Source: Meandrina meandrites
Taxonomy: Eukaryota > Cnidaria > Anthozoa > Scleractinia > Meandrinidae
DNA length: 64,000 bases
Direction of reading: 5' to 3'
NCBI GenBank assembly: GCA_963693305.1
Contig: OY855911.1
Location: forward strand, 30,892,939 to 30,956,938
Each line of letters opens with the position of its first letter. Within the stretch, counting starts at the first letter, position 1. Of the stretch, positions 7,099 through 55,511 are shown one piece after another. A program made the position numbers and the translations under genes. Under the pieces are notes generated by a model. It ran no database searches. It saw nothing but the letters and a program-made list of their open reading frames with translations, and was not told the DNA's origin.

Positions 7099-10000
7099 CT
7101 TGAAAAGTTGCTGGAAGAAGTAAGAAAGACGACCCTTAAGGGACAAGAAGATTCAGTCTCATCCCAGTGCGCTTTGTTCGTGTGCAACAAATGGGACCAA
7201 GTTCCGGAGAAAGAAAATAAAGATGTCAAAAACCATGTGATCAACAAACTGAAAAAGTGCTGGCCTGGACTTGATCCCGAATTGCAGATCATCTACATGT
7301 CAACAAAGAAAGCGAGTGTCGCTCAGGACCACGGAATAATCACAGAAGAATTTTCCACTCTGATGAATGGTTTGAAGTCCATGGTTTTGAAAAGCATTAA
7401 GGCTAGGTTGGAAATGCATTGGAAGTAAGTGTTTAAGGGTGTCAGTTTTCTCTTCTTTTTTGACTTCAGAACCAAATATGAGAAATAATAATTCCTTAAA
7501 ATGAAACGCCACTGCCCCGGGGGGGTTACTTGGGCCAATCTTTGTTGGGTATGTGCCGCTAGCCTCTCAGAACCCCTGCCCCATTATAGTCATATTCTAT
7601 GGCCAATTATAGACCCCATCTTAGTCACTTTTGGGTAAATGTAATTTTCACGACCCCAACTTAGTCACTTAATGGGAGCCATTTGTAAAATATTAAACAA
7701 CAGCAATGAATACGGTAACTTTTTCTTTTTGGCGAATCTTTCCGTTTATAAATCACAACTTGCCAGAATTTTCTTACTCTCAAAATCCCGGAAAAGTGTG
7801 ACCCCATTCTAGTCACCCTATAAAAAATGCTTGAAAAAGCGACCCCATTATAGTCAGTCCAGTCGTGAAAATGCGACCCCATCCAGCGGCACATCCCCAT
7901 TAGCCCATTTATAGGAAGTGCCCCCCCCCCCCCCCGGGGCCACTGCACTTAATTTGAGGGCGAGGAAGAACCGATGAAAGAACTCCAAATAAAGTACATA
8001 AGTTATCAATTGTAGAAATGAAAAATGTATTTTCAGGATTTAAGTTATAGATGTAAAAGATGAAAGTGTTATGTAACTGTTTCTTATAGCTAGATATATT
8101 AAGCTCTTGGGATAAAGTCGATTCTGTCTCCCTTGTGATATCTCTCTTGATGTTTCCTCTCAGACGTTTCCAGACTGTTTTCTCTTTGTCAGCGAAACAG
8201 CCTGAAGAGGAAACAGCAGTCTCGAAATGTCTGAGAAAATTGTATAAGCATTTCGCTTTCAACCCGGCCTACAAATTATATTGGCTAATTTACGACATTG
8301 TGGACAAATAATACATTGACGATCGCCGATTCTCTGGTACAACAATCGTGCTAAAAATGGCTAATCCTATAATGATCCTAGCTTACAAGAAAACAGTATT
8401 CGCTTTGGTAGTGATTTATATATAACAAATCGGCGAAACTATTTCATGAGCACTCTATCTTGGCGGTTTTGCAAATATCGGTGTGCTCTAGGAAACAATC
8501 AAAATACTCTGTTCAAACATGGGCAGTTATACTGCAAGCTTATGCTAAAGAGTTGCCTTACATCTATATGTTAAGTGGGTAAAGCATGCATGTACATCTA
8601 AATACACGTTTCATTTCATTTCTTTCAGATGGCTAGATTCCTTGCTCTCAAGGATAATTTATCAAGCAAAAGCTTTCGTGATGAATGCTTCCAGAGACCA
8701 CCACAAAGTCGCTCGCAAAATGACTGCGATTCTTTTCCGTTTGGGTCAGATTGACAAACAACAAACACAAGTTGTGGAAAAGCTTCATAACTATTTGAAG
8801 GCCCGTGTCGATGGTGCTGTTCAGAAGTTGTCAGAGTATCTTAAGTCAGATGATGTCAAAACCCGCTTTACAACATGGGCCTTAGATGAAGTTCCAAAGG
8901 CGGGGAGCTCCTGGGAAGAGACAAAAAGCAATATCGCAAAAGTGTTAAAAAGCCGGCTGCGAGAAACCATAGAGCATTGGGAAGAAGATAACCAAGTATT
9001 CTCAGATGCACGTGAGTCCCTTTTACAACACTTTCAGCAGCGGTACAATTTTGTTGAAGGGCAATTACGGAGTCTCCAAGATGCTGTCACAAATGATGAC
9101 CTCGATGTTCCAGAAGGTAATCCACCCGATAGTAGCTTAACTACGGCAGAAAAGGTTGCCATAGGCGTCACAAGTCCAATCTGGGTTCCACTTTCCCTAT
9201 ATGTGCTGGTCATCGGTGCCCCTGTGGTCGGTATACTGGTGATTAAAAACATGCTGGAAGATAAGAGTGAATTCAAGAGATACGAAAACGACAAGCGTGC
9301 TTTCATGGTTGAAACGTCGGCAGGCTATCTCGATGGCGCTACAGAAGAGAAGGTTCTCAAGTCTTTCGTGGAGGACCAATTGAAAGAGGCGTGGGTGTGC
9401 CTAAAGCAAATTGAAGCCCGTATTCCAGAGCTGATCCAGGCTGATAAAATGTTGTGTAAACAACTTGATGATGAAACCGTCTCTCAGTCAGAAATACAAG
9501 AGCTGTACGCACCAATAATGGATAATGCTTCTGCCATCAGGGGAAATTTGGCAGCCTTTGGATTAGAAGAAATCCGTGTCGCTGATATCAGCAGTGAAGA
9601 GTTAGACTGGAAAGAAGACGAGTCAAGCCGTCTTCGTTGTGGTGCGTTTAGTACTGTGTACCAAGGGAAGATGCGAAAGCATAAAGTCGAGCAAATTGTG
9701 GAATTAAAGGTTTGCAGAGAAACGCTCGACGCCAAAAATGCAAACCTTCTCATGGCGGAGGTGGACCTTCTGAGGTACGCTATTTTCAATGAGTTTCTGT
9801 TAAGGCTTCTGATTATCCCCATTCCTCCAACCTTTACGCCTTACATATAACAGCTAAACTATGAAGGAAGCACGTACAGAATGTGCCAGTCTGGATGTCC
9901 TTAATACCACCGTTAGTAAAGACAAACCGGACGCTCAACCTTATTGAATGTGTTCCAACTTCCTGCATTTTTCGTAACTCGTTTTTCTCTCAAAACCTCC

Positions 10001-12561
10001 CAGTTAGTATAGGCTATTATACCATTTGTAACAATGGTAGAGCAGGTCTCGTCTTTGCGGGAGACCCAAGAGTACATAAATGTCGGAGAAGGGTAAACTA
10101 CAAAAGGCCTTGCTTTGCAAAATGCAATAGCCATATTGAATCAATTTGAATCCAAGTCAACCTTTTTCTATTTCTATACACTTCGACTTTGTTATTTCAT
10201 GTACCGGCATCGGACGATGGGCGAATTAATAAATTAATTTATCAGTAATTTCTTCTGCAGTTAATATGTTGTGTGAGGCAAGGATGATTATGGAATGTTC
10301 TCATATTTTTCGCTCGTTTAGACCCTGTTCGGCGATTTCTAAAACTGGCGATACAATAAATGCCAAATGAAGTTAAGAAAATCGGAAAAGTAACACGATT
10401 TTGAATCGCCTGTATATTGTGTATAATTATCATTCATTTCACTAGAAAATTGGAACATCCTCACATCGTAAAGTTTTATGGCACATCACTTCTCAAGAAA
10501 GGGGATAGCACAAGAGTAATCCTGGTAATGGAAATGTGCAAACAAAAATTGAAGAGTCACATATTTGGTCACCCAGAGGCAGCTCCTGCAACATCCACGG
10601 ATCCTGCGGTTGTTAGAGAAGTATGTCGTTGGGCGACAGAGATCACCGATGCTCTTGCGTTTATGCACAATCAAGGAGTTGTCCACAGAGACCTGACGCT
10701 CGAGAACATCTTGGTATGAAACTAACTAGCATTTAAAATCTACAAGAGATCTTCATAGAACACTGTTCAAAAAATCTATAGCGTGCATAGCAAGCGTTCC
10801 AGTAGAGCGCGAACGATACTATCCCTTTTTCGCTTCTTGCCGCGCGTTATTTGGGTGAGACCAAAGAAAATAGGAGGAGGAAGAGAAGTGGAGAGGAGGG
10901 AACGCTTGCCAGAAAACTCCATGATTCTGAAAAACCCGTTCGTCCACAAACGGTGCTTCCGATTGGTGTGGTGTGGAAATGTATCAAATTCACGTGAATG
11001 ATTTGAACGCTTGCTACGCAGGCTAAAATCTCTCTGAAAGTTTTCTTTCGTTTCTTTTTGTAAATTTTGACCGGAGAGAAAAAAGAAACAAAACATTTAT
11101 TCCACGCTCGTGACTTGATGAATATTTCGAGCGTAAAATTTGTCATCTTTCTCCAATGAATCACCATATATTACGTTTGCCTATCGACATTGTTGATCCT
11201 AGCAGTACAGGGGCGTATCTACCTGTGCGCACCTGAAAAAGTCGAAAATTAAAAAAAGTATAACAAACTTAAGGTTACTGATAACCTTTTCGGGTGCCTT
11301 TCGGAAGAAGTTTCGTACGCACGTCATTTTTGGTGAAACCATGGCTAACTATATATCTGTGGAAAGGTTATGAAATGTAAAATATAATTATATAAAAATC
11401 GTGGAAATTTATAGCTTCGGTTAGCGCGCGCGAGCCTTTAAACTTTGCAGCCGGCGTTCACGTTGAGTAGATGAATATACGATACGTTTGGAATTCATTG
11501 TTTTTTTTTTTCAATGAAGCTAAACAATAAAGGGATCGTTCGACGAAACTAAAACAAGATTTACACAATAGATTGCAACTCTGCGTGAGCTAAATATTCA
11601 TAAAAACGTTACAATTTTCAATCGATAATACCACAGACGAAATAATAATCAACGAAAAAAACGCAAAACCTAAACGAATTATCAACGTAGAATCATACCT
11701 CTTATCCCCTTTTGTGCAAAAACAGAACCTTTGTCGTTGTGATAGTTTGGAGGCACACGTTAGACTACTCTACGCAATAAACTTATGGTGAACGCCCCCA
11801 AAGCTACTGCGCATGTCCGTTTCCGTTACGCAACAGATTGATATAACAAACGTAACAAACTTGAAACCGTCGATGTTCACTTCGCTGAACTACCCGCCTT
11901 CCCATTATCTCTTACAACAAAACAAACTGCACTTTATCAATCTGCACTTGATAGACTACCAAAGAGGGTAAATTAAATGCCTGCTCATCAGGCGTTTCTC
12001 CGTAGCTTAGTGGATAAAGCGCCTACCGGGTTTTTGTCAGGTCAAGGGTTCGAATCCTAGCTGACCAATCAACTTCACTTTTTTTTGCTACGAGCTCTCT
12101 TTCAGATTACGGAAAATCGATTGTTTAATTTTCTTAGCACTATTAAATTGCGTGATTGTGTTTCTTGTTTTCCATTTAAGCTATCAAAGGATAATTCGGT
12201 GAAGGTTACTGATGTTGGAGTATTTAAAGAAGCAGGAACCCCTGTTTACAGTGTTTACATCGCACCAGAAGTGTTCCATTCCAAGGTCTATGACAGCAAA
12301 GCAGACATATACAGCTTTGGCATAATACTCTGGGAGATATGGTATGGGCAGCAGGCCCTCGTTGAAGTTAAGGGGCCAACAACAGCTTTCTTGGGCTTGG
12401 TGGATGAAGGCTATGGTTTGCAATATGTCAAAGGTAAAAAAGAACCTCCGCGCAGCTGGAAAATATTGATGGAGAAATGCTGGAGTAAAGACCCAGATGA
12501 ACGCCCATCTCTTTGGGATTGTCGCCAACAATTCATGGAACTGAATAAGGAATGGTTGTAA
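7099..12561 (+). CDS. Copy A: 5'-truncated GTPase-kinase family member (exons 5-8 only)
   Basis: Exons 7099-7424, 8629-9774, 10446-10713 and 12181-12561 are open, with intact GT-AG sites and phases matching the paralogues. Exons 1-4, which carry the P-loop and DSPG, are not found in the 7 kb upstream, so no GTP-binding G1 or G3 remains; G4 (CNKWDQVP) does. Stalk and hydrophobic segment (PLSLYVLVIGAPVVGILVI) are kept. Kinase changes: the glycine loop reads RCGAFSTV instead of GSGAFATV, VELK for VALK, HRDLTLEN (catalytic-loop Lys to Thr), DVG, and a 5-residue deletion in the activation loop before APE. If expressed, it is probably a pseudokinase lacking a working GTPase. It may be a decaying duplicate. 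Confidence 0.8.
7515..7939. mobile_element. 425-bp inverted-repeat element in copy A intron 5
   Basis: Ends CCCCGGGGGGG and CCCCCCCGGGG; flanks CCACTG at 7509-7514 and 7940-7945. B and C have the uninterrupted site (GCTACTGCACC and GCTACTACACC). The interior repeats ACCCCATTATAGTCA and related ATAGTCA blocks. Confidence 0.75.
10778..11024. mobile_element. 247-bp MITE in copy A intron 7
   Basis: Arms TAGCGTGCATAGCAAGCGTT and complement of AGCCTGCGTAGCAAGCGTTC. AAAATCT flanks both sides (10771-10777, 11025-11031), and the C intron has the single AAAATCT site. Confidence 0.72.
11996..12070 (+). mobile_element. tRNA-derived SINE head in copy A intron 7
   Basis: The A box (TAGCTTAGTGG) and B box (GGGTTCGAATCC) of a polymerase III promoter are spaced as in a tRNA, but the stems do not pair, so it is not a working tRNA. 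A T-rich tail follows. Confidence 0.65.
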
Positions 12562-13586: not shown

Positions 13587-13589
13587 AAT

Positions 13590-14350: not shown

Positions 14351-14365
14351 GCCACCCACTATTAA

Positions 14366-14699: not shown

Positions 14700-14701
14700 T
14701 G

Positions 14702-17492: not shown

Positions 17493-17568
17493 TGGCCGTT
17501 TTTATACTAGAGACGCGTTACCCGTCTGGACGAGCTTCGGCAAAAATTTTGTAATTCGTCCGGTTATC

Positions 17569-17599
<31 letters not shown>

Positions 17600-17679
17600 G
17601 TTACCCGTCCAGATGAGCTACTTTTCGAAATCCGTCGTTCAAGACGCGTTTCGAAAAGTAGCTCGTCTAGACGGGTAAC

Positions 17680-17710
<31 letters not shown>

Positions 17711-17786
17711 GATAACCGGACGAATTACAAAATTTTTGCCGAAGCTCGTCCAGACGGGTAACGCGTCTCTAGTATAAAAACGGCCA
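17493..17786. repeat. 294-bp near-perfect palindrome
   Basis: Ends TGGCCGTTTTTATACTAGAG and complement; each arm includes GACGGGTAACGCGTC, AAATTTTTGCCGAAGC and GGATAACCGGACGAATTAC. The centre is TTTCGAAATCCGTCG. The near-identity of the arms indicates a young foldback element. Confidence 0.8.
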
Positions 17787-19357: not shown

Positions 19358-20008
19358 CTATTGTAAGTGTACATTTGCATCTTCAGTCTTGCTAGAAAAT
19401 GACACGGATGCTCGTTTTGGCGCATTTGGTTTTGGTGCTGGCCGTGGTGCTGGTTTTGGTGGCACTTGTGGCTTTGAGACTAGTCGTCGTGGTTTTGGAA
19501 CTGGGTGTGGCTTTGAAGGAGGAGGATTTGGTTCAGCAGCAGGTAATTCACGTCCAGAGGAACTGTGGAGCATTTTGTCGGATGGGGACACACTCTGCAT
19601 GTCCTTTACCTTTTGAAGCTTTTGAAACTTTTGAAGCTCCTTCCGGCTGTCTTGAGCAGATAGCCGTCGTTGTGGCTCGCTATCCCAACACGTTTGCATA
19701 ACAAGTTGCCACATCCCCCATGGTTGGCGTGTGCCACCAACGTGGCTTGGGCGAAGTCCACCTCTTATATCATCGAGAAGCTTGAAGTGAGATCGGCTGG
19801 CCAGTTCGTTTTGAAATGCTATTTTGGCATACCACATTTCCCAAAGTATCAGGCCAAAACTGTACATGTCAGCCTTGCTGTCGTAGATTCGACCATCCAG
19901 GACTTCGGGAGCAAGGTAAAGCAGGGTACCGCACATTGTACCCGTTATGTCTTTTTCATGCTTGGCCACGCCAACATCGGTTAGTTTCACTTTGTTCTCA
20001 ACTGTCAA
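19358..20008 (-). CDS. Copy D exon 8: kinase C-lobe plus proline-rich tail
   Basis: It starts LTVENKVKLTDVG (DVG for DFG), then APEV, DSKADMYSFGLILWEMWY, and a C-terminal extension of about 70 residues rich in Pro and Lys, with PQVPPK and repeated KP/RP pairs. The plus-strand copies stop right after the kinase, so the tail is specific to D. The PxxPxK motif could bind SH3 domains (inference). Confidence 0.83.
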   Translation of the reverse strand: MTVENKVKLTDVGVAKHEKDITGTMCGTLLYLAPEVLDGRIYDSKADMYSFGLILWEMWYAKIAFQNELASRSHFKLLDDIRGGLRPSHVGGTRQPWGMWQLVMQTCWDSEPQRRLSAQDSRKELQKFQKLQKVKDMQSVSPSDKMLHSSSGRELPAAEPNPPPSKPHPVPKPRRLVSKPQVPPKPAPRPAPKPNAPKRASVSFSSKTEDANVHLQ

Positions 20009-20318: not shown

Positions 20319-23300
20319 CATGTTTTCTATTTCTTTTAGAAAACACCGCGACGAAAAAAACGAAAACAACTTGTTAACTCTGACTATCAAAATGTAAATT
20401 CTCTTTGCTCGCGCCATCATCACGTCAAGTGTTCGTGCTAGTTCTGTGTTTCTATCGAGTTATAGAAACACGATTTTTAACCAATCAGCGCGCGTATTTT
20501 CTTACGACTGTTTTCTAATGTATTGTATTGCTTTATCTTTTAGCTTCTAATGTATACTACTTACTACTTAATCCTTATAGCCCCCAGTGGGGCATGGGGC
20601 CGCATTAATATTACATTTTTATATATTCTCATAGAGAGCAATCCTAGTATGGGAATGAAATTCCCCAAAGTGCTTCTCCCGCCATGTAACCCCCTTTCTC
20701 TCCTTTTACAACTTACATAGATGCACTCGACAAAATATCATTAAACGTTACACCTTAAACCTAGCTTCAGATACAACGTCACAAAGTCTACAACCGGACT
20801 ATTTACTTTATGACCTTTCTGATCCCTCTTTTTAATTACAAGCTAAAACCCTTTTCTATATAAGGCTAACTCGAATCAATGGCATTTTACTTACCAATAA
20901 ATTTTCCAATTTAAGGTCTCGGTGGACAAAACCATGATCGTGAACATAGCATAACGCGTCAAGAATTTGCAAAGCCCAGGGCAGCACATTGTTTCTCACC
21001 TTTACGTCTTCTGAGTGTGCTGGAGCATTCTCTTGCTGGGACATGATGCGAGTTTTAAGGGAGCACTCGCAAAGCTCTAAGATTACCATCACTTTAGTGC
21101 CACATGAGGACTTTTGAAGATTTGTTCCAAAGAACTTTACAATGTTTGGATGACGCAATTCTCTGACAGAAAGAAATAAACACTTTTAATACACATGCTG
21201 AACTTCATTTAAATGACTATTGCAGTAAGAGAACATCAAACCTGTGACACTCTTAGACGAATTAATATCTTGATCAGCAATCGGTGAGGAAATACTTTAA
21301 TAAGTAATACTTTCTACCTTCACTTGATTAGTTAAGTGATGTCCATGGGCAACTAAAAACAAGGGTAAAATTGATTGGGGATGGGAAGGTACAAACATTA
21401 CTCCCACCCCTCCTCCTTTTGGTCATTAGCCATGGACTACTGGACCCCCATATATATTTCCTCTATTGAAATGATATTTTCATTATAAGAAAGTAATGTC
21501 CCTTTTCCTCTGTCGCATATAAAATGTACTCTGGTTCAATTTGTTCTAACAGAAGGATAATTACCTATGGAAAACAGTGTCCAAATGTAAAACATATGAT
21601 GAGTTATGAGATGTATCTGATACGTGCGTTAGACCAGGTTTTGCCCTCTGTCTGTCAGGCAATGCTACGAGAGAGAGAGTCCAGGAAACATTGCCTACGA
21701 ATGCTCGCGATAAACCGATTTCACGTGACCCTCAGAATAAAAAAGTCTAGACGAAACGGCTACTCTCTTGGTGGATGGCAATTATCCCCGCTTCTTTATC
21801 GAAAGCTGCACGAGAGACCTCTTTTTCCCATAGCATTGCCTGACAGAGAGAGAGAGCCAGAACTGTCTAATTTGGTAGCATTGGTAGCAAGGTAGATTGT
21901 TGCACAACCTGACCAGGGTTCATATTTTGTATATTTCCCTAAGGAAATGCCTCTAGTAACTGGCCGTCTATTTATGATTCCGTGCGACCGTTTTCCAAAA
22001 ATAATGACAAATATCGGCAAAATCGTTTTGTCAAAGAAAACAAACCTGAGAGCTATTTCCTCGTCAATAAAATGCCATACGTTGTTTCTTTTCAGAGGAT
22101 TACTGTAGACCTTGAGTGCCACCTTAGTTTCTGGTTCTCCTTTTCGAGAAAGAATACCGCTGTACACGGTCGAGAAGGTTCCTTTTCCAATGACAGATTT
22201 TTCTTCTTCGATCCACTGTAGCTCTCCACCTGAGAAATCTGATTTCCTTATCTCTTTGACGTTGAACACGGTAATGTCTCGTTTTAATTCGTCCAAACGC
22301 GTGCTCACGGGTGCGTAGGTCCCTTGGATCTGCAATTTGCTTCTAGACTCGGTAAGCAGCTTACGATACAGCTTCTTATCTCCTTCTCTCAGTCGTGGAA
22401 TCTTAGCCTTGATTTGAATCAGGAACTGAACCGCATCTTCCAACTGTCCGTTTATGAACGGAAGTAGCCTATCCTCACTGGCAATGATCTTAAGGCATTT
22501 CAAAGATCTCTTTTTCATGTAGGGGAATGGATCTGCTCTGTACTTCTCAAGCTTCTTTTTGTACTGGAAGCTCTGTTTGAATTTCTGCGTAAGAGCACCA
22601 ATAAATGGAGCACCCACCACGACAGATGCCAAGCCTTGACGAAACCACACTGGAGTGGCGACATCTATGGACTTTTTTGGCCGCCTTTTATGAGACGTTG
22701 ACGGTTTGGGAGGCTCATGAGTGGGACCTTCGTGATCGACTTCTCCAAAAACATCTTCTTCCACTTTTCGGATTTCTTCTTCCATGATATCATACTTTTC
22801 AGCAAAATATTTAATCAACGCAACCTGGGCCTTTGCAAAATGGTGATTTTCATCTTCCCATTCCTGCACATACTGCTGAGCTCTTTCGGAAATACACTTT
22901 AAAACTTCACTTTTAGTCTCCTCCCAAGTTCCTGCAATAACGGGCAGTTGAGCAGAAGACCACTCGCAGAACCTGTTGGAAGTTCCTTCAGATTTGAAAT
23001 ACTCAACAAGATTTGTAATAACTTCTTTTATCACTTGTGACTGATATTCACTTAGTTCGCCAAAAATACGATCCTGTGAACTTTCCAATTCCATCATTCT
23101 ATCCATAACTCTTTTCATTCTCTTTTCTGTCTCCTGGCGTGACATGTCCGTTGATTTCAACACGGTCCTGACCTGAGTGGAAGCACGAGACAGGACTTCC
23201 TCGAGCCATCTGTAATTATTAACAATTAATTAATGTCTTGACTAATTAAACTTTATATTGTTAAATGATGGCTTCAAGATGCAATAGCCTGCTTAAAAAG

Positions 23301-26300
23301 GTACAGTGGTGTAGTTTTTTCCTTTTCAGTTCTTGTGGTCTTTTTTTTTAAATGGCTTCTACTTCATTCCCCAATGTCCACACTCAATGCTGCCATTACT
23401 TCCAACTGCCAAATTGAGAACTTGTTTGTTTTTTTTGTTTTTTTTTCAGTTGAGAGCTCTTTTTTTAGCGAGAACAAGTCATAAGAATAGCATAGGTCCT
23501 ATTTTCATTCTGCTTCAGGCTCATTAACGCGTATACCTTTCACAAAAACCAGCGTTATTGTAAGCAAGTGTCAATTTTTTCTCTGTGCTTTCAGTCTACT
23601 GCATCCAAATGAGAATCGATCGTTTTCCTTATGTACTGAGCGTGGTGCATATTAGTTTCTCCTATTATTGGTATCTTCAAATAGATAAATGTCGTTTGCG
23701 TTATATTATCCTTTTTCATTGCAATGAAGATATTTGAGCCTATGTTTTTTGCTCTTTTTCTACTTGCCTGGAATAAATTTGCAGGCTGGTCTGCATGAAC
23801 GAGATCACAAGATTGTTAATACCACTTAGAAGCTGATCAAAGTCTTCAGTTATGACACCATAGTTCTGTGCGAGCTGCGCTCTTTGGCACGAAAAGTAAA
23901 TGATCTGCGACTGCTGGTCTATGTCTCCCCACTTCTTGGTGAGTGTTTCAATTTGTTTCTTCTTCACATCCTCGACATCCTTAGCAGGAATATCATCCCA
24001 CTTGTTGCAAACAAACAAAGCACACGAAGTGAATAATTTAACATCCATGTTTGCTTTCTCCTTCAGGTTTATGGCTTGGTTGAGTAACACACAGAGCTGT
24101 TTAGGGGAACAAATTATGCAAATAGTTAGCAATTATGCACATGTTTTAATTTTTTAAAAAAACTGAACAAAGTTCTATGGAGTTAGGATAGTCAGAGGAC
24201 CATTCAAACTGCTTATCGGCTTGTCAAATTGAGAGACAAACAATTTACAAAATTAATAAGACAGTGAAAAAGGGCTTGAGTTATAGCTCTTAAAGAATGA
24301 TATAACTATTCAGGATTTATTATAAGGCCTTATTGTAGGGCTTACTTTTATTTATTTGACGTTGTTTTAGAAAGTTTGTATCAGCTGCGTGCCAATCATG
24401 TGTCAACATGACACACAGGAAGGGTTCCAACAACAGCCTCCACTTGTACCCCCTTGTGGTGGCATGAATTTGCTTGTACGTCCAACGATAAAGTTTTTAA
24501 GGTACCGGTGTATAGTAATAGCCTTTTCGCAAAGGGCAAAAGGGGGCGCCTTACCCTGTCTTCCTGAATTCCTCCAGCGTTGGAACTATTAATCACATAG
24601 ATGAAGCAAAAGGCATGTGGCAGGTAGCTAAGGGCAAATTCATTCATCGCGTTGCTTTCTCCTACGCCAGGACTATCAACAATCATGACACCTTCCTACA
24701 GCAAGAAAGAAACATTTCTTCTGTCATTCATAACTGTTATTGTCACTGAGAATGTTTCACTTTAACACCGGACAAAAATCAAATCAACATTCGAGCTTTC
24801 AGTCAAATCTCCGTTTATTTAAGAATGGAATATGAAGCAAAGATTGTAATGCCATTAGTTAATTCATTAAAACTCACTTCAGGAGTGCTTGAGTGATTTA
24901 CTTTGAAAACAGTGAAAAAATGCAATTGATAAGTCCTGAAGCTATATTCCAATTTTTGATTACCATAACTATTACCATTACATGGTTTTGAAGCTTATCA
25001 TGGTCTCTTTCCACGATAACTTGTCTCGTGATATTTCCTCCGAGTTTTAGTGTCATTTAAACCGAGCGACCACACACACGAAAAGTAAAATAACTGAATG
25101 TAGAGAAGTAAAAACATTTTTCGGAATAAATAGACTATTGATTCGAATTTTTGTTTTGAGATTTCACCATTTCACCATGGGCATGTCACCTTGTCGTAGT
25201 GGTGACGCTTCCATGTTTTAGTGATCTCAAGAGCTATGTTAGCTAGGGCCTTACCATAAAGTGGGTTCAATCATGCTATGCCAGTGGGAGAAGCCAGGCA
25301 ATGCATGGGGGTTGGATGTGGGCCAATCAATCCCCTTGAGGCGAGTTATGCGCCACTTCGTGCAAGAAGGCCTGAGTGAATATTCTGCTTGGAACAGAAT
25401 GAACAGAATATTGTTTTTGGACATTTTTTAAATTCCTTTGCCAAAAACTTTCTTGAAACAGGGTCTGACTGGGGCTCAAAAACAAGGAAGAGACAAATTG
25501 CGTCTCAACATAATTTCTGTACAACTACACAACTAACAGTCAAAATTTCACTGACGACTAATCCAAATTGGTTCAAACACTTGAAAAATAGAGGATCTCT
25601 CAGGGGGATTCTCTTAATCCCTTTAAACAATTCGCATTTCCCCCCTTAGTAAAGTTAAGTCTACATGAGAGCCTAGTGGCCCATCAGGCCGGAGCTTATC
25701 CCGGTTTCCGTAGCATGAAGCGACTAGTAGTATTTCTACATGCGTCTGGATGGGATGCTAGTCCATCGCAGCGTTACCCCCAGCAGTAAATTCGTGGGTA
25801 CTCCATTTATACACCTGGGTGGAGAGAGCCATTATGAGAGTAAAGTACCTAGTCCAAGAACACAACGCACTGCCCCAGCCAGTGCTCGAACGCGAACCGC
25901 CCGATTCCGGAGTCCAGCGCACTAACCACCCCGCCTCTCACAATTTTTCCATTGATTACCATCAATAAATTAAGGCGTTTCATGAACGTTCTCGCAAAAT
26001 TCCCGTTGAAAGAAACTCAAACAAATCTAAAATACCCCTTATTCCACTCATAATTAATTCATCGCGTTCCCTTATTCCCATAACCACTGGGAAAACCTCA
26101 ATACATGTAGATCGCAATTCACACTCTCAGAAATTTAACACTTATGTCCAGGATTGAACGCAGGTATCGTTTGGCAAGTACTTCATGTATGACTGGATTT
26201 TTGACCATTTTCATTCTACTTCATATTTGACAGAATTATGTGTGTTTAGGTGAACTTTTAACAGGGAGAACATTTTGTGATGCTTATTATAAAGAGCATG

Positions 26301-34100: not shown

Positions 34101-35164
34101 CTTTCATCTTTTCAAGCCTCCAGAGGGATCATCGGAACAAAGTTACCTTCAGCAGATCTCTCCTTTTGTTCACGTGAAGAGTGATCGAGAAAAAGGTTCA
34201 ATTTATAAGAAGATTGAGATATTTTGGCCCCACCAACTTTTGGAGGTAGTTATAATTTATCTCTATGATTATTATAATGCAATGAAAATGAAAAAAAAGT
34301 CAAGTCCAACGACTAAATCGATACATCATGTACACAACAGCTATGACATACTTATGAATCAAAAAATCCTAGAACCCGTTTTTTCTAACTATAAGTACTG
34401 CTTAGGCCATGGTCCATCGACAAACGTTGAACCTCACATGGGTCGAACCTGATACAAATGGCCAAAAGCAATAGCTTTTGCTCGTTGGCATTAGGTTCGA
34501 CTTATGCCAGGTTGGATGTTTGACTATGGCCTAACTAAGACCTTGCTTGCAAATTTAGACAACTTTCCGTCGATAGAGAATGTTACATAAATTTACGTTG
34601 GCTTCGAATCTTATCGACAGACTTTTATAAAAGAAAATTTTGGCCGATGGAAAAAACAATAACAGAACGAGAGCTTTCACTGGGGAGATTTAAAGTTATT
34701 ACCTCTTTTCACGTTGCCATGGCGACAAATCTTGACGTGTTTTGAGTCAAACTCTGTCAATCGATAAAAGATTTCCGTAAACGGTTTTCAGCTGAAACCA
34801 ATTGCCTATCTGTAATAGATTGCTAAAGACGGGAAGACCTAAAGTACTACGAGCCACCTTAACAACATTCAGTTGAATATTGCATAACTAATCGATAAAC
34901 ATAAAAGAAATAAGGTTATAAGGTTTTACTATTCTATACGAGTTGATTATAACTGAGTGTGATCTTCTGTACCAACGTCCACAATTCTCTATCTTTCAGA
35001 AAGGCGTGGTTATCATTGACAGTCCTGGTATTGGTGAGTCTGAAATCATGGACGAGATAGTCACGCAATATTTGCCTCAAGCCTTTGCATTCATTTATGT
35101 CATTAACAGTGCAAATGCTGGAGGAGTTCAGAAAGACAGAGTGAGTATTAAGCAGCAATAGCGT

Positions 35165-36055: not shown

Positions 36056-36160
36056 TACAATACAATACAATACAATACAATACAATACAATACAATACAA
36101 TACAATACAATACAATACAATACAATACAATACAATACAATACAATACAATACAATACAA
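36056..36160. repeat. (TACAA)21 microsatellite
   Basis: 21 uninterrupted TACAA units directly beside the LINE fragment. On the minus strand they would be TTGTA at the 5' side of the fragment. Confidence 0.95.
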
Positions 36161-39100: not shown

Positions 39101-42100
39101 AAGTGTGCTTTCATGGCTGAAATTTCCGCAGGCTATCTCGATGACGCTACAAACGGAACGGTGCTCAAACAGTTCGTGAAGGACCAACTGAAAGAGGCGA
39201 AGCTGTGTCTGAAGCAAATTGAAGCCCGTATTCCTGAGCTGATCCAGGCTGATAAAATGTTGTGTAAACAACTCGGTGACGAAACCCGCTCACAGGCAGA
39301 GATACAGAAGCTGTACCAACCAATAATGGATGAAGCTTCGGACATCAGGGGACATTTGTCATTATTTGGATTAAAAGAAATCCGTGCCGTTGATATCAGC
39401 AGTGAGGAGTTAGAATGGAAAGAAGGCATGTCGCCCCCTCTTGGCTCTGGTGCGTTTGCCACTGTGTACCAAGGGAAGATGAGAAAGCGTGAAGTCGAGC
39501 AAATTGTGGCGTTAAAGGTTTGCAGCGAAATACTTGACGCCAAAAATGCAAGCCTTATTATGGCGGAGGTGAACCTTCTGAGGAACGTCAGTTTAATTGA
39601 ATTTCCGTTAAGGTTTCTGATTTTTCCCAATCTTTACGCCTTACATATAAGAGCTAAAGTATGAAGGAGGAAAGTACAGAATGTGACAATCAGAGCGTCC
39701 TGAATACCTGTGTTAGTAAAGACAAGCCGAACGCTTCACCTTTTTCAATGTGCTCAACTTTCCGCATTTAAGGCAATATGCAAGAAGTTGAACACATTGA
39801 GTTGAAACTCGTTTTTCCAGTACCTCCCAGTAACTTTTTTTTAATCTCTGACGATATGTAGGCTCTCATACCATTTAAGACAATGGTATGGAAGATGCCT
39901 TTGGAAACCCAAGAGTATGTAATTACAAGGGCTAGCGGCATGTGGTTTAGAAGGGCGAAACACCCGAGGTCTTGCCTTGTAAACTATTAACAAAAGGCCT
40001 TGCTTTGCAAAATACAATTGAGTCAACGGTTTTGTACTTCTGTATACGTATCGGACCACGGGCGCATTCATCTTACCATAATTTCATCTGCAGTTTATAT
40101 GCTGTGCGACGTGTGGCTGACGATGATTATAAAATTTGCTCCAATTTCTCGCATTTGGTGAAAGCAAAACTGGTGACACAACAAAGAAGAAAGAAATACA
40201 GAAAATCGGAAAAGTAATGTATATGGTTAACAAATGTTTATTCTTTTCATTAGAAAATTGGAACATCCTCACATCGTAAAGTTTTATGGCACATCACTTC
40301 TCAAGAAAGGAGGTACCACAAGAGTAATCCTGGTCATGGAAAAGTGCAAAGCAAACTTGAAGAGTCTCATCTTTGATCACCCAGAATCAGTTCCTGCAAA
40401 AGACAGAAATCCTGCTGTTGTTAGAGAAGTATATCGTTGGGCAAAAGAGATCACCGATGCCCTTTCGTTTATGCACAACCAGGGAGTGGTCCACAGAGAC
40501 CTGAAGTTAGAGAACATTTTGGTATGAAACTAACCAACATTTAAAATCTAAGAGGGGCCAACTTAGAAGATTGTTCAAAATCTCTCTGAAAGTTTTCTTT
40601 CAATTTCCACTAGAGGGAAAGAAAAAAATAAATTAATTATTTCACACTTGGGACATGATGAATATTACATTTTTCTCATTACGCGACCGAGAATATAACC
40701 ATACTTTAGACTCTCGACACTGCTGGTATGCAGGATGCATGTCACAACTTTAACAAATAGATTCCATTTTGCTATGCGTCTGTTCAGTTATATATTACTG
40801 ATCAAAATGTGGTAAGAACAAAAAAGTGGCCCACGAGTCGCTAGGTAAATATTTTTTGCACTTATCGCTCGAACTTTCAGCGGGAACCGTCTAAATTTTC
40901 TCAGCAATATTAAATTGGATGTGTTTATTGTTTTTTTTTATTAAAGCTTTCAGAGGAGAACTCAGTGAAGATTACTGATATCGGCGTTTCTAAAGAAGCC
41001 AAGGACATCACAGGTACTTTGGCGGGAACTCCTCTTTACATTGCACCAGAAGTGTTTCATTCCAAGGTCTATGACAGCAAAGCAGACATATACAGCTTTG
41101 GCATAATACTGTGGGAGATGTGGTATGGGCAGCAGGCCTTCGCTGAAGCTGCAGTGCCGGTGACAGCTTTCTTCAGCTTGGTGGATGACGGCTACCGTCC
41201 GAAAGATGTCAAAGGTAAAAAGGAACCGCCGCGCCGCTGGAAAATATTGATGGAGAAATGTTGGAATAAAGACCCAGATGAACGCCCATCTGCTTGGATA
41301 TGTAACCAAGAAATTACGAAACTCTCTGAAGCAGTTATAAGACCCTAGTAACATTAACAGCGGTCCAATAAAATAATTTAAGATGGCCAGCAAAAATTTT
41401 CAGCACTTTTACGGGGCATTTGAGGTGGCTTTGAGCCCCCGTTGGCAAAATTCGTTTTAAACTTTTCAAACAAAAGTTGTCTGTTGACACGCTAGTAAAA
41501 ATGGGGATCACCTAGCATGCCTAACTCTAATAACAATAGTTGTAACAATAATTAGCACTTTAATGACCTCGGAGAAGCTGGACCATTTAGCTGTATTATA
41601 TATTAGGCAGGCACAAGTGCTTACTTACAAAAGAGGAGTGAAACACCCTATGTAAAAACTTTTCGCGATTCCTCTCGCTCAGATTATCATTCTGCTTAAC
41701 TCTAAAACTTTGGCGCAGCGGGAAGGGGAGGAAGGGGGGGGGGGGGGGGGGGACGTAGCATTTTTTCCCCTGCTTCCCACCTTCCCTTTTTTAGGAAAGA
41801 TAGGTGGCTGCCCAACTTGCACTTGTTTAAGATAAGGTGCTTCTCCTTTCACTACTCCAACCAAGATAGTACTCCCCTGCACGAGCTAGAGGTAACAATT
41901 TACGATATCGAGGCTGGAAATAGCATGCAATCGCTCCGCTTTGTTCTCCTTATGATATCTGTGCGAAATCCAAAGGGGCAGATATTTATAATTTAGTACC
42001 AATATAATAAAATTTAGCATAAATTTTCCTTTATCACACTGACTAAGCATAATTAGTAAGCTTAATGAAGAGAACACTGAGCTGTATGCCGGGAATAGTG

Positions 42101-44306: not shown

Positions 44307-45965
44307 ATGGCTTCTGGTAGAACGAAAAACATCGAGGAAATCGACGATCTTGGGGACATGTTGGAAACAATGGCGGCGCTCCGTATTTCTGCTTTAGGAT
44401 TACAAACATTGGATCAGATGAAAGATCGAGTTAGAACGGAATTAAACCAGTCTTTAGAAAAGCCCAGCTGGACGGCAGGTCAGGTAAGACTATCAAGACA
44501 ACTGCTTAACAGGAAGTGTTTCTCCGGGGAAACGTGTTTCGTAATATCATAATGATTTAATTAAGAACCGTAGCAGAAAATAGTTTATCGAAAGTACATT
44601 GTATTCGCATTTGCGTTTTTACACAAATTTTAATGCATTAAACTCATTTTACTATACACTCGTCGAACTGTTGCTTCGACTGAACTTCATCATGAGGCTT
44701 TCCAAGTTGGCAAGGGTATATAATAATTACCGATGAATAATGCCAGGTCACGTTAATAACAGAGACAAGCATGCAATTTCTCTATCCGATTCTCTATACT
44801 CTACTATAAATGTATATTTGCTGATTTCTAGTACTGAATGAATTATCACTTTGTGTTAATAACACCTGATCGAACAACTGCATTTATTAGGCTATTTATA
44901 ACTCATTATGTTTCCCCGAAACAACTCAATAGATTTCCACGAAATTTGTGAAAGTTCACAAATCTGTAAAGAAGTAGCTAGAACGGGTTATAAAAATTGA
45001 ATATTGCACCGGGTTTTGGAAAAAGACGTCTCTTCCCAGTGCATCTTCATAACTATCAAATTGGCAAGGATATGTCAAGTTTCAAGTTGTTTAGATCAAC
45101 ATTATAGAGGAGGTGAGGAAAAAGTGTCCCAACAGCTGTGACAGTGATTATATATTGCGTGCAGTGCAGGTGTTTTCTTGGTTAGGCGAGTATTGGAAAA
45201 ATTCGTTCGTGTGTTAAGCCGCCAACTTCGATTATTAAAACCTCATGATGGGTGATTGCGATGGCCTAAAAGCCACTCCGGTCCTTTGACTATTTTTCCC
45301 ATTCTCGGACACGATGGAATATTAAACTGTGAGCCATGTGTGAATAGCAAAATGTCGCCAATTCTCTAATTCTCGACAATTCCTATCAAAGTAAGCCCCT
45401 CACACCACTGGAGGGAAAAACACTCGGTGCAATTATTGGATGGCACAACTGGAATCATGATATTCCTGTATCTATACGTAAAAAGCCAAAAATGCAAAAG
45501 AACTATTTTAAAGATCACGTTACCAATATTATTTCGCTCAGTATTAATTATTGCCATTAAAACCTTTGTAACATCTAAACCTTTTTGTTTCCTCGTTTTA
45601 CTCTCTTGAATTATGTTTTTTTTCTGGACCATACCTAACATTTTCAATGAATTGGCGGCTTAGTAAACTTTCCGGACTCGGATTTATGTTTAATTTACAC
45701 CAGGTATTTGGAACTGGATTGAAGTTTGATATAATATATTTTTTAAGGAAATCAATATTTCCATGGCAACGATAGACAGAGAAATACGAAATCAGTTCAA
45801 TTTGATGTTCTACGCGAATCAGATTTGACGTAAAAAAAATAAACACTAGTATCTGAAACTATGGAGTACTATGCATCAAATATACATGAGTAAAACAATT
45901 CTGTATGTTTGATTTCGAATAAATCGCAAATATATTTCAAACAGCGCTTTTTGTATGATAATTAA

Positions 45966-47742: not shown

Positions 47743-47791
47743 TTAAAGCGATTTTTCTTTTATTGTAGAAGTTATAAACAACTGTCATGTA

Positions 47792-47851: not shown

Positions 47852-50348
47852 AAGAAAATAATTTCAAAATGCACAATGTGGCATTACCAGGCATGAATTG
47901 TCAAAGGACAGACTGAAAATTAGCCAGTAAATGATACTACAACACAATTCAAGGTCAAGTTTGATTTGTCTTCTTTTTCATCTTTCAGGCCTTTTCCATT
48001 TTATCAGAAGCAAAAGATGAAGATGCCTTGAAAAAACAAGTTTTACTGATGCTTTACACTGACGTCGAAAATTGTCTGAATAGAATGGATAAGAAAATTA
48101 TGACTTTGTTGGAAAAGAACGTGGGTAACGTTAGAGAAAAGATAAAACACCATCAAGACCAACTGAAGCGGAATGAATACTTCCTTTTAGTGGCAGGTAA
48201 ATCAATGGCAAAATCAGTGGTTTTGATAATTAAAACTAAATAACTTCAGTGAAGAATTGAAATACACCGTCTAATGCAACTAACTGAGAGGGATTTAAAA
48301 GAAAAAATGGGGTCAGGTTGCAGCTCTCGCAAGGTCTCTCATGAATGGCTCGCTACCAATAGGGTTACTTCTGATCTTTTAAGTGCACATTTTGCACCAT
48401 ATCAAGGAAGCGTTTCAAGATACAAATCAAAAGAAAAGGTTCTCAAGTATTGAAAAAATCTTACAAACACGACATGTTTCCGCAAATTTCACAGCAAATT
48501 TCCTAGGGGCCTCAGTTTTAGGATTGCGAAGTGAAGAAAATTTGACTTATCGACACACCGAGAAGTTAATCTAATAAGTCAGAATAAGAAGGCAACCTAA
48601 CAATTGACGGCTTATTAAATTTAAAGGTGAGACCGGCTCCGGAAAAAGCAGCTTGGTGAATCTTATTCTAGGAGAGGAACTTCTTCCATATTCAGTACTC
48701 AGCACAACGTCTACCATATGCGAACTGAAATACGGAGAACAGCGCAGAATTGTGGCTCACTTTAAAGACAAGGATCCTGAAACAGGGCTTCCTACAAAGT
48801 CCTTTGATCTAGTGGAGCCTCCAGAGGGATCATCTGAACAAAGTTACCTTCAGCAAATCTCTCCTTATGTTCACGTGAAGAGTGATCGAGAAAAAGGTTC
48901 AATTTACAAGAAGATTGAAATATTCTGGTCTCACCAACTTTTGCAGGTAACTAATTTGGCACATCAAACAACACTTATGGTCTAATTTTTAGCACTACTT
49001 ACGCAAAACTCTTTTCTCTATGGAATATATCTTGTCTAAATTTACAAGCAAGATCTAAGGCCAGGGTCAAATGTCGAACTTAATGTCGAACCTAATGCAA
49101 ATTACCGAAAACAATAGCTTGTGCTCACTGGTATTAGGTTCGAATCATGTGAAGTTCGACGTTTGACCATGGCCTTAGATCTTGCTTGTAAATTTAGACA
49201 AGATATATTCCTTAGAGAAAAGAGTTTTGTTATTGTTATGTAAATTTTAGATGGCTTTGAATCTTACCCACAGCCTTTTTCACAAAATTGTTAATTTTTT
49301 TGGCCGATCAAACAAAAATATAACAAACAAAAATCTTCACGAGGGAGCTTTTAAGTTCTTAGCCTCAAACCTGAGTTACTCTTGACCTCTTTTCACGTTG
49401 CCATGGCGACAAATCTTGACGTCTTTTGAGTCCGACTCTGTCAATTGGTAAACGATTTACTGGTTTTCAGTATACGTCTTTTAGCCCGCAACATTGGCCT
49501 GCCTGTAATGAATTGCTAAAGACGACAAGATCTCGATCTAAAGGATTGATCGATAAGCATAGCAGTAGTGAGGTTTTAAGGTTTACTATTCTATATGAGG
49601 TGATAATAACTCAGTGTGATATTCTGTACCAAATTCCACGAATTACCTTTCAATTCTCTATCTTTAAGAAAGGCGTGGTTATCATTGACAGTCCTGGTAT
49701 TGGCGAGTCTGAAATCTTGGACGAGATAGTCAAACAATACCTTCCCCAAGCCTTTGCATTTATTTATGTCATCAACAGTGTAAATGCTGGTGGAATTCAG
49801 AAAGGAAGGGTAAGCATTAAACGTTAATAGCTTAGTGAATTTTTTGTTATTTGTAGCAATACACCTGAAATAACAACAGATGCAATGTTCTTGACTATTT
49901 AGCTTCGCTTCATCGTTAAATATGGAGAGACGCTGTTGTCCTGGTCTACTCGAAAACGACCCTCATAAATTCACAGTTCCTTTCTACGCTCAGGTGTATA
50001 AATGGACTACCTAACATAAATTACTAGCATCCTATCTAGGAGTGGCACGACAATACCTTCAGGTGCTCATTTTATTTGGAAAACGGAATTTTACTTTTTC
50101 CGTGCGTACACACATATCGTTTACTTATCGTTTTCCTTCGATCTCACTTATCAGCCTCTTATCGAATATATTTTACAAGTGTGTGCTTTGAATCAATCCA
50201 AATTCTCCTTCTCTTTCTCTATTAAATATCAGCAAGTACTTTTAAATACTGGTCTCAGTTAGAACCTCTTGCTTGTGGATCTCTGTCGGCTCGTAATTAA
50301 CGCTTAATGATTTTCAAGATTTGGTAAAAGAAGACCTGATTAAGTAGT

Positions 50349-50721: not shown

Positions 50722-53700
50722 TCTGAAGTGTAGCAGTGAAACATTCTTATCTGGCGCGATCGAGATCAAATGCTGTGACCTCATCGCTTTCAAAAAGTTC
50801 CGTTTTCACCATCCACACGAAAATGGAGAGCGTTTTCGAAAAGTTGCGTTTTCGGTCACCGTTTTCGCCGAATACCTTTGGACGGAAGACTAATCAGAAA
50901 GAAAAAGGGAACATGTAGGCGAGTCTTATATAACTTTCTTTTGTCCTGGGCGTTTCCAGGCTTATTCCAACGTTAGCGCGCAAATTATATAGTGATTATG
51001 TGATTCTAAGCAACAGGTTTATTTACAACAGTTCTTATCCAGACACCGCTGTAAAGGAGAAAGAACTGTTTGCCTGCTTCCCCACCCCAAACTGTTCAGT
51101 GCGAAAAAGTCGATGTGAGTCTCTATTTAAATGATCTTACCTTTGACTTACAGCTTGAAAAGTTGTTGGAAGAAGTAAGGAAAGTGACACTTGAGGGACA
51201 AGGAGAATCAGTTTCATCCCAGTGCGCTTTGTTCGTGTGCAACAAATGGGACCTAGTTCCGGAAAAGGAGAATAAAGAGGTCAAAAATAATGTGATGAAG
51301 AAACTGAAAAAGTGCTGGCCTGGTCTTAATCCCGAATTACAGATCATCTACATGTCAACAAAGAACGAGAGTGTCGCTCAGGACCACGGAAAAATCACAG
51401 ACGAATTTTCCACTCTGATGAATGGTATGAGGAATATGGTTTTGAAGAGCATTCAAGCTAGGCTAGAAATGCATTGGAAGTAAGTATTTAAGTGAAACGA
51501 TTTTTTTTTTCATTGATTGACTTTAGAACCAAAATAACAATATAAATCAAAAAATACAAAATCAAACGCTACTACACCTAATTCGAGAGGAAACTAGAAC
51601 TGAAATTAGTCAAACCGGCAAGTCATCAATTATAGCAATAAAAAAGATACAGCCAAGGTTTAAGTTGTAAGACGTGTAAATGTTTCTTACAGATTTATGA
51701 GTATAAAGCTCTGGAGAAAGACGATACTATCTCCCATGTAAACACATCACTATTGACTATGCCAAGTTGCGTAGACCTAGTATTTGACTTGTGTGCTTGA
51801 AAGGGTAATGTTAATACAATTCAATTTCCTCAAACGTTTCCAGACTGATGTCTCGTCATCACAATGTTTAACTTGTGACTGTGAGATACAGCAGTCTGGA
51901 AACGTCTGAGAAAATTGTGTAAACCTTTCTCCTCAAGCCGGCAGAGAAATAGTAGTGCTCAGCTAGTCCCATACACATCGTACTTCGCCCTCAGGTACGA
52001 TGCCAGAATTTATGGATTTCTAATGGCACCTTATTTTACTATTATGTAATATTGACACAAATGTTTTCAAAAACGAGATTATTCCATTAGTTATTTTTTT
52101 TATTTTTTAATGACCAAAACATAAGTCAGTACAGTTTGTGAGCTCCATTCATTTCGCAACTAATTTTACTGACGGTTCTGAGGTGCATATGTATTTCGCG
52201 CTCAAAACCGAGCAGGTTTTAATTACAATGGCTCAAATATTACATTAAATTGTTGTCTAGACAGAACTAAAAATGGCTAAATGGCTAAATGGCTAATGGC
52301 TTTAATGGTGATATACCGAAAGAACAAATCGGCGAAACTATTTCGTGAGCGATTCATCTTGCTGGCTATGTAAATCTCGGTTTGCTCTAGAAACCAATCA
52401 AATACTGAAAATATTCTTCATGCTCATCTATGTGCATCTAAATACACGTTTTATTTCATTTCTTTCAGATGGCTAGATTACTTGCTCTCACGGATAATTT
52501 ATCAAGCAAAAGCTTTTGTGATAAATGCTTCCAGAGACCACGACGAAGTCACTCAAAAAATGGCCTTGATTCGTCAACGTTTGTCTCTGATCGGACAACA
52601 ACAAACACAAGTTATGGAAGAGCTTCATAACTATTTGAAGGCCCGTGTCGATGGTGCTGTTCAGAAGCTATCAGAGTATCTTAAGTCAGATGATGTCAGA
52701 GTCCGCTTTACAACATGGAGCTTAGACGAAGTTCCAAAGGCGGGGAGCTCCTGAGAAGAGACAAAAAACAATATCGCAAAAGTGTTAAAAAGCCGGCTGA
52801 GAGAAACCATACAGCATTGGGAAGAAGATAACAAAGTATTCTCAGATGCACGTGAATCCCTTTTACAACACTTTCAGCAGCGGTACAATTTTGTTGAAGG
52901 GCAATTACGGAATCTCCAAGATGCTGTCACAAATGATGACCTCGATGTCCCAGAAAGTAATCCACCCGATAGAAGCTTAACTACGGCAGAAAAGGTTGCC
53001 ATAGGCGTCACTAGTCCAATCTGGATTCCACTTTCCCTATATGTGCTGGTCATCGGTGCCCCAGTGGTCGGCATACTGGTAATTAAAAACATGCTGGAAG
53101 ATAAGAGTAAAATCAAGAAATACGAAAAAGAAAAGTGTGCTTTCATGGCTAAATCGTCTGCGGGCTATCTCGATGATGCAACAAACGAAAAGGTGCTCAA
53201 GTGTTTCGTGGAGGACCAACTGAAAGAGGCGAAGTTCTGCCTAAAGCAAATTGAAGCCCGTATTCCAGAGCTCATCCAGGCTGACAAGCTGTTGTGTAAA
53301 CAACTCAGTGATGAAACCCGCTCACAGGAAGAGATACAAAAGCTGTACCAACCAATAATGGATGAAGCATCTGACATCAGGGTACATTTGTCATTATTTG
53401 GTTTAAAAGAAATCCGTGCCGTTGATATCAGCAGTGAGGAGTTAGACTGGAAAGAAATGTCGCCCCCTCTTGGCTCTGGTGCGTTTGCCACTGTGTACCA
53501 AGGGAAGATGAGAAAGCATGAAGTCGAGCAAATCGTGGCATTAAAGGTTTGCAACGAAGTACTCGACGCCACAAATGCACGTCTTATCACGGCGAAGGTG
53601 GACCTTCTGAGGTACGTGATTTTCCCCCAAACGTTACCGCCTTACATATAAGAGCTAAAATATGAAGTAGTAGGAACAAAATATGCCGATCAGAGCGTCC

Positions 53701-54587
53701 TGAATACCAGCGTTAATAAAGAAATTAGCCGAACGCTCAACCTTATTTAGACTGTATTTTTTCTTAACTCTTTTTTCACAAACTTCCCAAGTTATTTCTC
53801 AGTTGCATTCAAGGCATGTGTTATCTTTTTAAAGCAAAATGGCGTGACAATTTGTGACACTGGTATACCCCCGAGGTATACCAGATGTCTTTGGAGACCC
53901 AAGAGTACACAATTAATTAATTAATTGCACCCTGTGCCAATCGGAAGAGTAACGCGATTTTGGAATCGTCTGTATATGGTGTGTAATTTTCATTCCTTTC
54001 TTTAGAAAATTGGAGCATCCTCACATCGTAAAGTTTTATGGCACCTCACTTCTCAAGAAAGGGGACACCACACGAGTAATCCTAGTCATGAAAAAGTGCA
54101 AAGGAAACTTAAAGAGTCGCATCTTTGATCACCCAGAATCAGTTCCTGCAAAAGACAGAAATCCTGCTGTTGTTAGAGAAGTATATCGTTGGGCAAAAGA
54201 GATCACCGATGCTCTTGCGTTTATGCACAAACATGGAGTGGTCCACAGAGACCTGAAGCTAGAGAACATCTTGGTATGAAGCTAACAAGTGTTGAAAATC
54301 TAAGAGGGACCAACTTAGAACATTGTTCAAAATCTCTCAGAAAGTTTTTTTTTGTTTCTTTTATAAATTTCCACGGGAGAGAAAAAAGGAAAAAAAATCA
54401 TTCCACTCTCGTGACAAGATGATTATTACGTCTTTCTCATTTCATAATCGAGCGTAAAATTTATCATCTTTCTTAATTTATCACCACATGTTAAGCTATC
54501 TACATTGCCGATCTTAGCAGTATGCAGGACGCATGTCCCTTACATACCTAGATAAATTAATGACTTTGCTGATCAGAACTGTAGTTT

Positions 54588-54670: not shown

Positions 54671-55511
54671 TTTCTTTGTTGTATAGTTTGAATGTACTGT
54701 ACTGGAAACAACTGCCGACCCATCAATCAGTTCGGGCTCTCTTTCAGATTACGAAAAAAAATTGTTTCTTTAATTTTCTTAGCATTATTTAATTGCATTA
54801 TTGCTTTTATTGTTTTCTTGTTTAAGCTCTCAGAGGAGAACTTAGTGAAGATTACTGGTGTTGACGTTTCTAAAAAAGTAAAGGACATCACAGGTACTTT
54901 GGTGGGAACCCCTGTTCACATCGCACCAGAAGTGTTTCATTCTGAGGTGTATGACAGCAAAGCAGACATATACAGCTTTGGCATAATACTCTGGGAGATG
55001 TGGTATGGTCAGCAGGCCTTTGCTGAAGCTAGAGTGCCGGTGAAAGCTCTCTTCAGCTTGGTGGATGACGGCTATCGTCTGAAAGATGTCAAAGGTGAAA
55101 AGGAACCTCCGCGCCGCTGGAAAATATTGATGGAGAAATGCTGGAATAAAGACCCAGATGAACGCCCATCTGCTTGGACATGTCACCAAGAAATTACGAA
55201 ACTCTCTGAAGCAGTTATAAGACCCTAGTAACATTAACAGCGGTCCAATGAAATAATTTAAGATGGCCAGCAAAAATTTTCAGCACTTCTACGGGGCATT
55301 TGAGGTGGCTTTGAGCCCCCCGTTGGAAAAATTCGTTTTAAACTTTTCAAACAAAAGTTGTCTATTGACACGCTGGTAAAAATGGGGATCACCTAGCATG
55401 CCTAACTCTAATAACAATAGTTGTAACAATAATTAGCACTTTAATGACCTCGGAGAAGCTGGACCATTTAGCTGTATTACATATTAGGCAGGCACAAGTG
55501 CTTACTTATCA

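Follow-up and report, generated by a model that had tools for sequence, protein, structure and literature searches.

Arrayed genes for dynamin-like GTPase-kinase proteins in the coral Meandrina meandrites and their apparent relation to DSTYK

The window, that is, the whole stretch of 64,000 nucleotides of the stony coral Meandrina meandrites analysed here (C9:30892939-30956938, C9 being contig OY855911.1), carries within its positions 7099-55228 four copies of a gene encoding a dynamin-like GTPase joined to a kinase, designated A (plus strand), B (minus), C (plus), and D (plus). Coordinates without a contig prefix are those of the window, and genome searches covered the 551-Mb assembly. Copy B (30307-19358, minus strand), with its exons read together with their splice sites, gives an unbroken eight-exon model of 1,077 amino acids: exon 0 (30143..30307) supplies the start codon and 55 residues, exon 1 (27563..27776) the N-terminal helices up to beta1, exon 2 (26348..26649) the P-loop GETSAGKS and G2, exon 3 (24555..24695) the G3 motif DSPG, exon 4 (23768..24096) the G4 motif NKWD, exon 5 (22046..23209) the stalk with an amphipathic tip and the kinase N-lobe, exon 6 (20895..21162) the kinase segment with HRDLKLEN, and exon 7 (19358..20008) the DVG motif, the kinase C-lobe, a proline-rich tail, and the stop codon. 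The intron 3' of exon 4 has a GC donor. The encoded order is helices, Dynamin_N GTPase, helical stalk, kinase, and proline-rich tail, and the kinase residues (beta3 Lys, HRD Asp, and DFG Asp) are present. The Pfam search proposed in the initial annotation, which had been made from the letters of the DNA, was run on spliced copy B and recovered both Dynamin_N (E = 4.8e-21, residues 123-267) and Pkinase (E = 1.9e-43, residues 720-981), with no death domain among the matches. The nearest relative among the matches listed is from Oculina patagonica and aligns with 100% of the query at 80% identity.

The other three copies, all on the plus strand, are altered to differing degrees. Copy C comprises exon 0 (31163..31339, start codon), exon 1 (32914..33121), exon 2 (33926..34245, P-loop GETGSGKS), exon 3 (35000..35140, DSPG), exon 4 (37306..37631, NKWD, with an in-frame TGA at 37390-37392), exon 5 (38437..39582, followed at 39583-39584 by GA where the GT donor is expected), exon 6 (40254..40521, HRDLKLEN), and exon 7 (40947..41348, DIG and stop). 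Copy D comprises exon 0 (44307..44483, start codon), exon 1 (47989..48196), exon 2 (48627..48946, P-loop), exon 3 (49669..49809, DSPG), exon 4 (51154..51479, NKWD), exon 5 (52469..53611, with an in-frame TGA at 52752-52754), exon 6 (54006..54273, HRDLKLEN), and exon 7 (54827..55228, stop), in which ITGVDV stands and the Asp of DFG is lost; a fragment behind it (55519..55644, plus strand) duplicates the last part of exon 7. Given a TGA in each, the GA donor of C, and the missing DFG Asp of D, both are probably non-functional as assembled, and their stops and the lost donor may be either true lesions or assembly errors. Copy A, which shows no stop in the exons compared, had been taken to begin at 7099; its exons 1-3 in fact lie upstream of the window (C9:30891046-30892912), and position 7099 opens exon 4 (7099..7424, G4 motif CNKWD), which is followed by exon 5 (8629..9774, stalk, hydrophobic tip, and kinase N-lobe), exon 6 (10446..10713, kinase with HRDLTLEN), and exon 7 (12181..12561, kinase C-lobe with DVG, a shortened activation segment, and the stop).

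These models bear out the central proposal of the initial annotation, namely that GTPase motifs, a hydrophobic segment, and a kinase occur in one polypeptide, as the copies present a collinear exon series; exon 5 alone covers both the stalk and the kinase N-lobe (in copy C, the kinase match falls at frame residues 347-398). Several details required revision. The P-loop exon is not the 5' end of the gene, since two further coding exons precede it in B, C, and D. The near-identity of exon lengths extends to three copies: the lengths in D are 177/208/320/141/326/1143/268/402 (exons 0-7), those in C are the same except for exon 5 (1146), and exons 4-6 of A match those of C, with a last exon 21 bases shorter than that of D, but in B (165/214/302/141/329/1164/268/651) six of the eight differ by several bases while phases stay the same. 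The pairing of HRD with an aliphatic residue at the Phe position of DFG, claimed for A, B, and D, was found in A (DVG), in B (DVG), and additionally in C (DIG), but D reads T-G-V-D-V where B has T-D-V-G-V, so that the catalytic Asp is missing.

The cluster of four is part of something larger and runs on both strands. Twelve copies lie within 250 kb (C9:30.82-31.07 Mb), the region in which exons were read, and whole-assembly searches probed with the stalk exon of copy C (32 rows) and that of copy B (31 rows), which merge to the same 29 places, place at least 29 copies in the genome in two arrays, with 21 at C9:30.83-31.33 Mb and eight at C9:27.15-27.29 Mb, all of these counts being lower bounds. 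The tandem duplication and decay noted from the window alone are thus real: the stalk exon contains a stop in two of the 29 places, and in the 250-kb region the P-loop (GKS/T) and DSPG are intact in 12/12 copies while HRD and DxG are intact in 8/12, residues having been lost in G1, D, and G12 and no kinase exon having been found in G10 within this region. Within this set of eight, A reads HRDLT and the catalytic-loop Asn is missing from G2. Nei-Gojobori dN/dS was computed for 16 pairs over three segments, 11 of which (ten among A, C, D, G8, and G9, plus B-G7) were free of saturation, dS being saturated in at least one segment of the other five. In these 11 pairs dN/dS was 0.09-0.26 for the GTPase, 0.19-0.58 for the stalk, and 0.30-0.52 for the kinase, and in every one of them the GTPase was the lowest segment. 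Selection is purifying; both halves are constrained, the GTPase most, and the values include some relaxation because lesion-bearing C and D are among the pairs. Diversifying selection over whole segments was rejected, since none of the 11 unsaturated pairs reached a dN/dS of 0.6 and amino-acid change was not in excess at that level. The immune-type role that had been suggested from duplication and decay stays conjectural.

Proteins with both domains are annotated well beyond stony corals: among the matches listed (the best 120 of 236 and the best 120 of 265 in two protein searches) they occur in scleractinians, the octocoral Dendronephthya, Branchiostoma, the hemichordates Glandiceps and Ptychodera, the nemertean Lineus, gastropods, bivalves, and an octopus, with none from vertebrates in either set. 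Relatives without a kinase, for example in Trichoplax and Lingula, also appear among the matches listed, some of them labelled 'mitofusin-like' by NCBI; in public databases, many members are named 'uncharacterized' and some 'DSTYK-like'. The design had been called uncommon, which stands insofar as no description of a dynamin-kinase fusion, or of a dynamin-like DSTYK N-terminus, was found among titles and abstract openings in the open-access literature, but the architecture is widespread in invertebrates. The kinds of domain are already known; this literature did not show a description of their combination, its breadth, the coral arrays, or the DSTYK link. Taken together, the Pfam E-values, dN/dS well below 1 between copies, and the annotation in other animals of proteins with this architecture exclude a chance origin.

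Conservation of motifs was read from an alignment of 34 rows, hereafter A1, chosen from the best 120 of 236 matches. Dynamin_N is found in 34/34 rows and Pkinase in 31/34; the G1, G2, and G3 residues checked, including the P-loop and DxxG, are invariant in 34/34, and the G4 Asn is kept in 33/34. Among the 31 kinases, the beta3 Lys is kept in all, the HRD Asp in 26, and the DFG Asp in 26, with beta3 Lys, HRD Asp, and DxG retained together in 25; the six without the full set are four from amphioxus, one from Oculina, and P0026. The Phe position of DFG is held by V in 21 kinases, A in three, P in three, I in two, L in two, and F in none. The amphioxus rows P0044, P0049, P0050, and P0055, in which HRD/DFG residues are replaced and the GTPase motifs kept, are pseudokinase members. 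Separately, HEPN_DZIP3 (PF18738) occurs on the same predicted Oculina protein (P0010) as the GTPase and kinase, reflecting either a fusion or a misjoined gene model.

Structure prediction, another of the checks initially proposed, was carried out on the Oculina relative P0001 from A1, for which AlphaFold2 returned a model (pLDDT 76.8, pTM 0.68) with a predicted BDLP-like helical stalk after the GTPase head. In a Foldseek search of the PDB with this model, the first two matches were BDLP, ahead of any kinase, the best reaching E = 7.9e-18 with 17% identity over 721 alignment columns spanning head and stalk. The superposition is loose (rmsd 10.8, TM 0.36/0.53), as would be expected for a hinged protein, yet it is no proof of a BDLP-like fold. 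In two further searches all the matches listed were kinases: a PDB sequence search with A1 (the best 60 of 2,852 matches) and VIA-align (50 matches), the latter saying nothing on the GTPase part. Dynamin_N with G1, G3, and G4, together with the predicted BDLP-like helical stalk, gives the family features of the dynamin superfamily in sequence and predicted fold. BDLP (PDB 2j69, 2j68) appears alike in head and stalk, a likeness that rests on a predicted model, but has no kinase. Given that the BDLP stalk bears a hydrophobic tip, the hydrophobic stretch found late in the stalk region may be a comparable paddle-like tip that inserts into membranes. The hydrophobic segment described in the initial annotation is evident in three copies (A, C, and D), where hydropathy peaks at 2.39-2.43, and weak in B, with a maximum of 1.26, and a hydropathy scan did not find such a tip in several mollusc members; a transmembrane segment as a general feature of the family was accordingly dropped.

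The reading that we favour, and that we consider somewhat better supported than an even chance, is that the kinases are brought together by GTP-driven assembly at membranes. An intact copy encodes a single protein of about 1,000 amino acids, in which a BDLP-type GTPase (N-terminal helices, head, and a long helical stalk whose tip is hydrophobic in many members) precedes a kinase whose DFG motif carries an aliphatic residue. GTP-loaded heads would pair, and the stalks would assemble at a membrane touched by the tip; assembly would raise the local concentration of kinase and permit activation in trans, and the kinases would then signal until GTP hydrolysis took the complex apart. A GTPase and a kinase are likewise combined in one protein in the ROCO/LRRK kinases, whose Roc is a Ras-like domain, and mitofusin and the IRG/GBP proteins are membrane-acting large GTPases without a kinase.

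A function led by the GTPase fits these data as well, since the P-loop and DSPG are kept in all 12 copies while kinase damage affects four of the 12 and six of the 31 A1 kinases. The GTPase might itself be the effector, acting in membrane remodelling or attack as do Mx, GBP, and IRG proteins, with the kinase as an accessory that regulates or reads it, so that kinase-dead copies would still be useful. The lower dN/dS of the GTPase and the invariance of G1-G3 in A1, as against 26/31 for the HRD Asp, agree with such an arrangement; on the other hand, the kinase is present in 31 of the 34 rows and is under purifying selection, and DSTYK exhibits the opposite pattern, with the kinase kept and GTPase residues lost. 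We regard a GTPase effector as a real prospect, albeit a minority one. The two activities are separable, as DSTYK has kept its kinase while losing the GTPase residues.

DSTYK, to which the initial annotation had pointed as a comparable design, was the right lead for a deeper reason: comparisons of sequence suggest that its N-terminus is a degenerate form of the GTPase of the coral family, a relation that is new here. With a profile of the DSTYK N-terminus, the family N-terminus was matched over 416 collinear columns (E = 1.5e-8) and the family GTPase part alone at E = 4.5e-7, the family stalk alone giving a non-significant E = 0.01 and the family kinase, used as a control, E = 0.076. Addition of the coral DSTYK exon brought the GTPase match to E = 2.2e-9 (score 72.5), as compared with a best E of 0.021 (score 23.5) among 100 column shuffles, of which 99 gave a hit and one gave none. 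BLASTP of N-termini linked vertebrate DSTYK to oyster P0182 (1.5e-10) and coral DSTYK to a gene near 9.68 Mb of C9 (3.5e-16), which in turn matched family members with E values down to 1.5e-18, and the match of the 9.68-Mb N-terminus to the vertebrate DSTYK profile was weak (E = 0.00096). DSTYK shares with the family the order of GTPase-like region, helical middle, and kinase, as well as an aliphatic DxG (TDLG), but in alligator and coral DSTYK the P-loop is GxxxxAK[C/V] and DSPG is absent. The one coral DSTYK locus found (C8:12.82-12.83 Mb; 33-77% identity to alligator DSTYK in five matched stretches) has GQTCFAKV at the position of GxxxxGKS. An AlphaFold2 prediction for alligator DSTYK with 27 other DSTYKs was poor (pLDDT 42.9, pTM 0.36).

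Coral genes at C9:9.58-9.76 Mb tie DSTYK to the family, as they combine an intact P-loop with a DSTYK-type kinase and share introns with both. Like the window family they have Dynamin_N (E = 1.4e-18 in the 9.68-Mb copy), but their G4 reads VSKLE rather than NKWD, and their kinases, 44-45% identical to that of DSTYK, group with it; their middle region also matches DSTYK, one gene of this type aligning (E = 6.5e-27) to residues 336-697 of DSTYK, a stretch that is largely stalk and includes some of the kinase, and another to 335-660 (E = 2.1e-10). Three introns, one within the GTPase and the other two within the kinase, agree in position and phase across the window copies, coral DSTYK, and one gene at 9.68 Mb. 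DSTYK probably arose from the same lineage through loss of P-loop and switch residues, in which case it would be a pseudo-GTPase kinase. The kinase phylogeny advised at the outset (49 rows, including 18 outgroup rows of other kinases from the protein search, in an unrooted tree with long branches) places DSTYK and the 9.68-Mb gene in one group (100/100) and the window family in another (97/98). Copy B and the family kinases thus lie outside the DSTYK clade and are not DSTYK orthologues, and their P-loop is not degenerate in any of the 12 copies. As a separate observation, two DSTYK-like kinase exons flank two Dynamin_N exons on opposite strands at C2:33306534-33324562, perhaps representing two more genes of the 9.68-Mb type.

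The separate placement of DSTYK and the 9.68-Mb gene in this unrooted, long-branched tree would also suit two independent fusions of a P-loop GTPase to a kinase, with the likeness to DSTYK confined to the kinase; so would the lack of any Pfam domain, Dynamin_N included, in the N-terminal halves of four vertebrate DSTYKs, the lack of such a match in coral DSTYK, and the non-significant comparison of the DSTYK N-terminus with the stalk of the window family alone (E = 0.01, probability 4%). Yet the N-terminal GTPase region itself matches DSTYK, and as a single sequence P0001 matches the DSTYK profile (2.8e-5) far better than do two other Dynamin_N proteins of the genome (0.0031 and 0.013), BLASTP of coral DSTYK in the same comparison giving 2.8e-8 and 0.004; with the stalk matches of the 9.7-Mb-type genes and the shared introns of GTPase and kinase also standing against them, two separate fusions are improbable.

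That the GTPase and the kinase belong to two adjacent genes, combined by an exon reading that crosses from one to the other, is scarcely credible: transcripts are not something that the window alone can show, but the same domain order is annotated in several phyla, the stalk and the kinase N-lobe share exon 5, and 11 picked proteins of 933-1061 amino acids have both domains uninterrupted on contigs no longer than 3,060 to 4,748 bases, too short to hold the introns of the coral gene, which argues for one transcript, and separate transcripts were rejected on these grounds.

More broadly, although as a whole this is less likely than not, the family may represent an ancient animal class of dynamin-kinases that assemble on membranes and that have expanded in corals and amphioxus in the manner of immune receptor arrays, with GTP-driven assembly switching the kinase on, and DSTYK may be its vertebrate pseudo-GTPase survivor, sensing or binding membranes via a dead dynamin head. 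DSTYK mutations are linked to human disease, and a zebrafish study of scoliosis reportedly concerns DSTYK. Reading the DSTYK N-terminus as a decayed dynamin head would make nucleotide binding, membrane binding, and dimerisation directly testable. The invertebrate family, for its part, offers a natural design that wires a dynamin-like GTPase to a kinase, present in about thirty copies in one coral with decayed variants that separate the two activities.

The window holds further features. An inverted repeat at 17483-17796, with 154-nt arms that are 95% complementary and 6 nt apart, is possibly a small transposable element, and a short-unit repeat at 35892-36326 reads NTIQYNTIQY within an open frame. 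A neighbouring gene has Pentaxin-domain exons (59718-60254 and 60637-60939; E = 1.1e-5 and 4.5e-6) and, after them, a TLDc exon (62733-63044; E = 1.1e-12), which together perhaps encode one pentraxin-TLDc protein.
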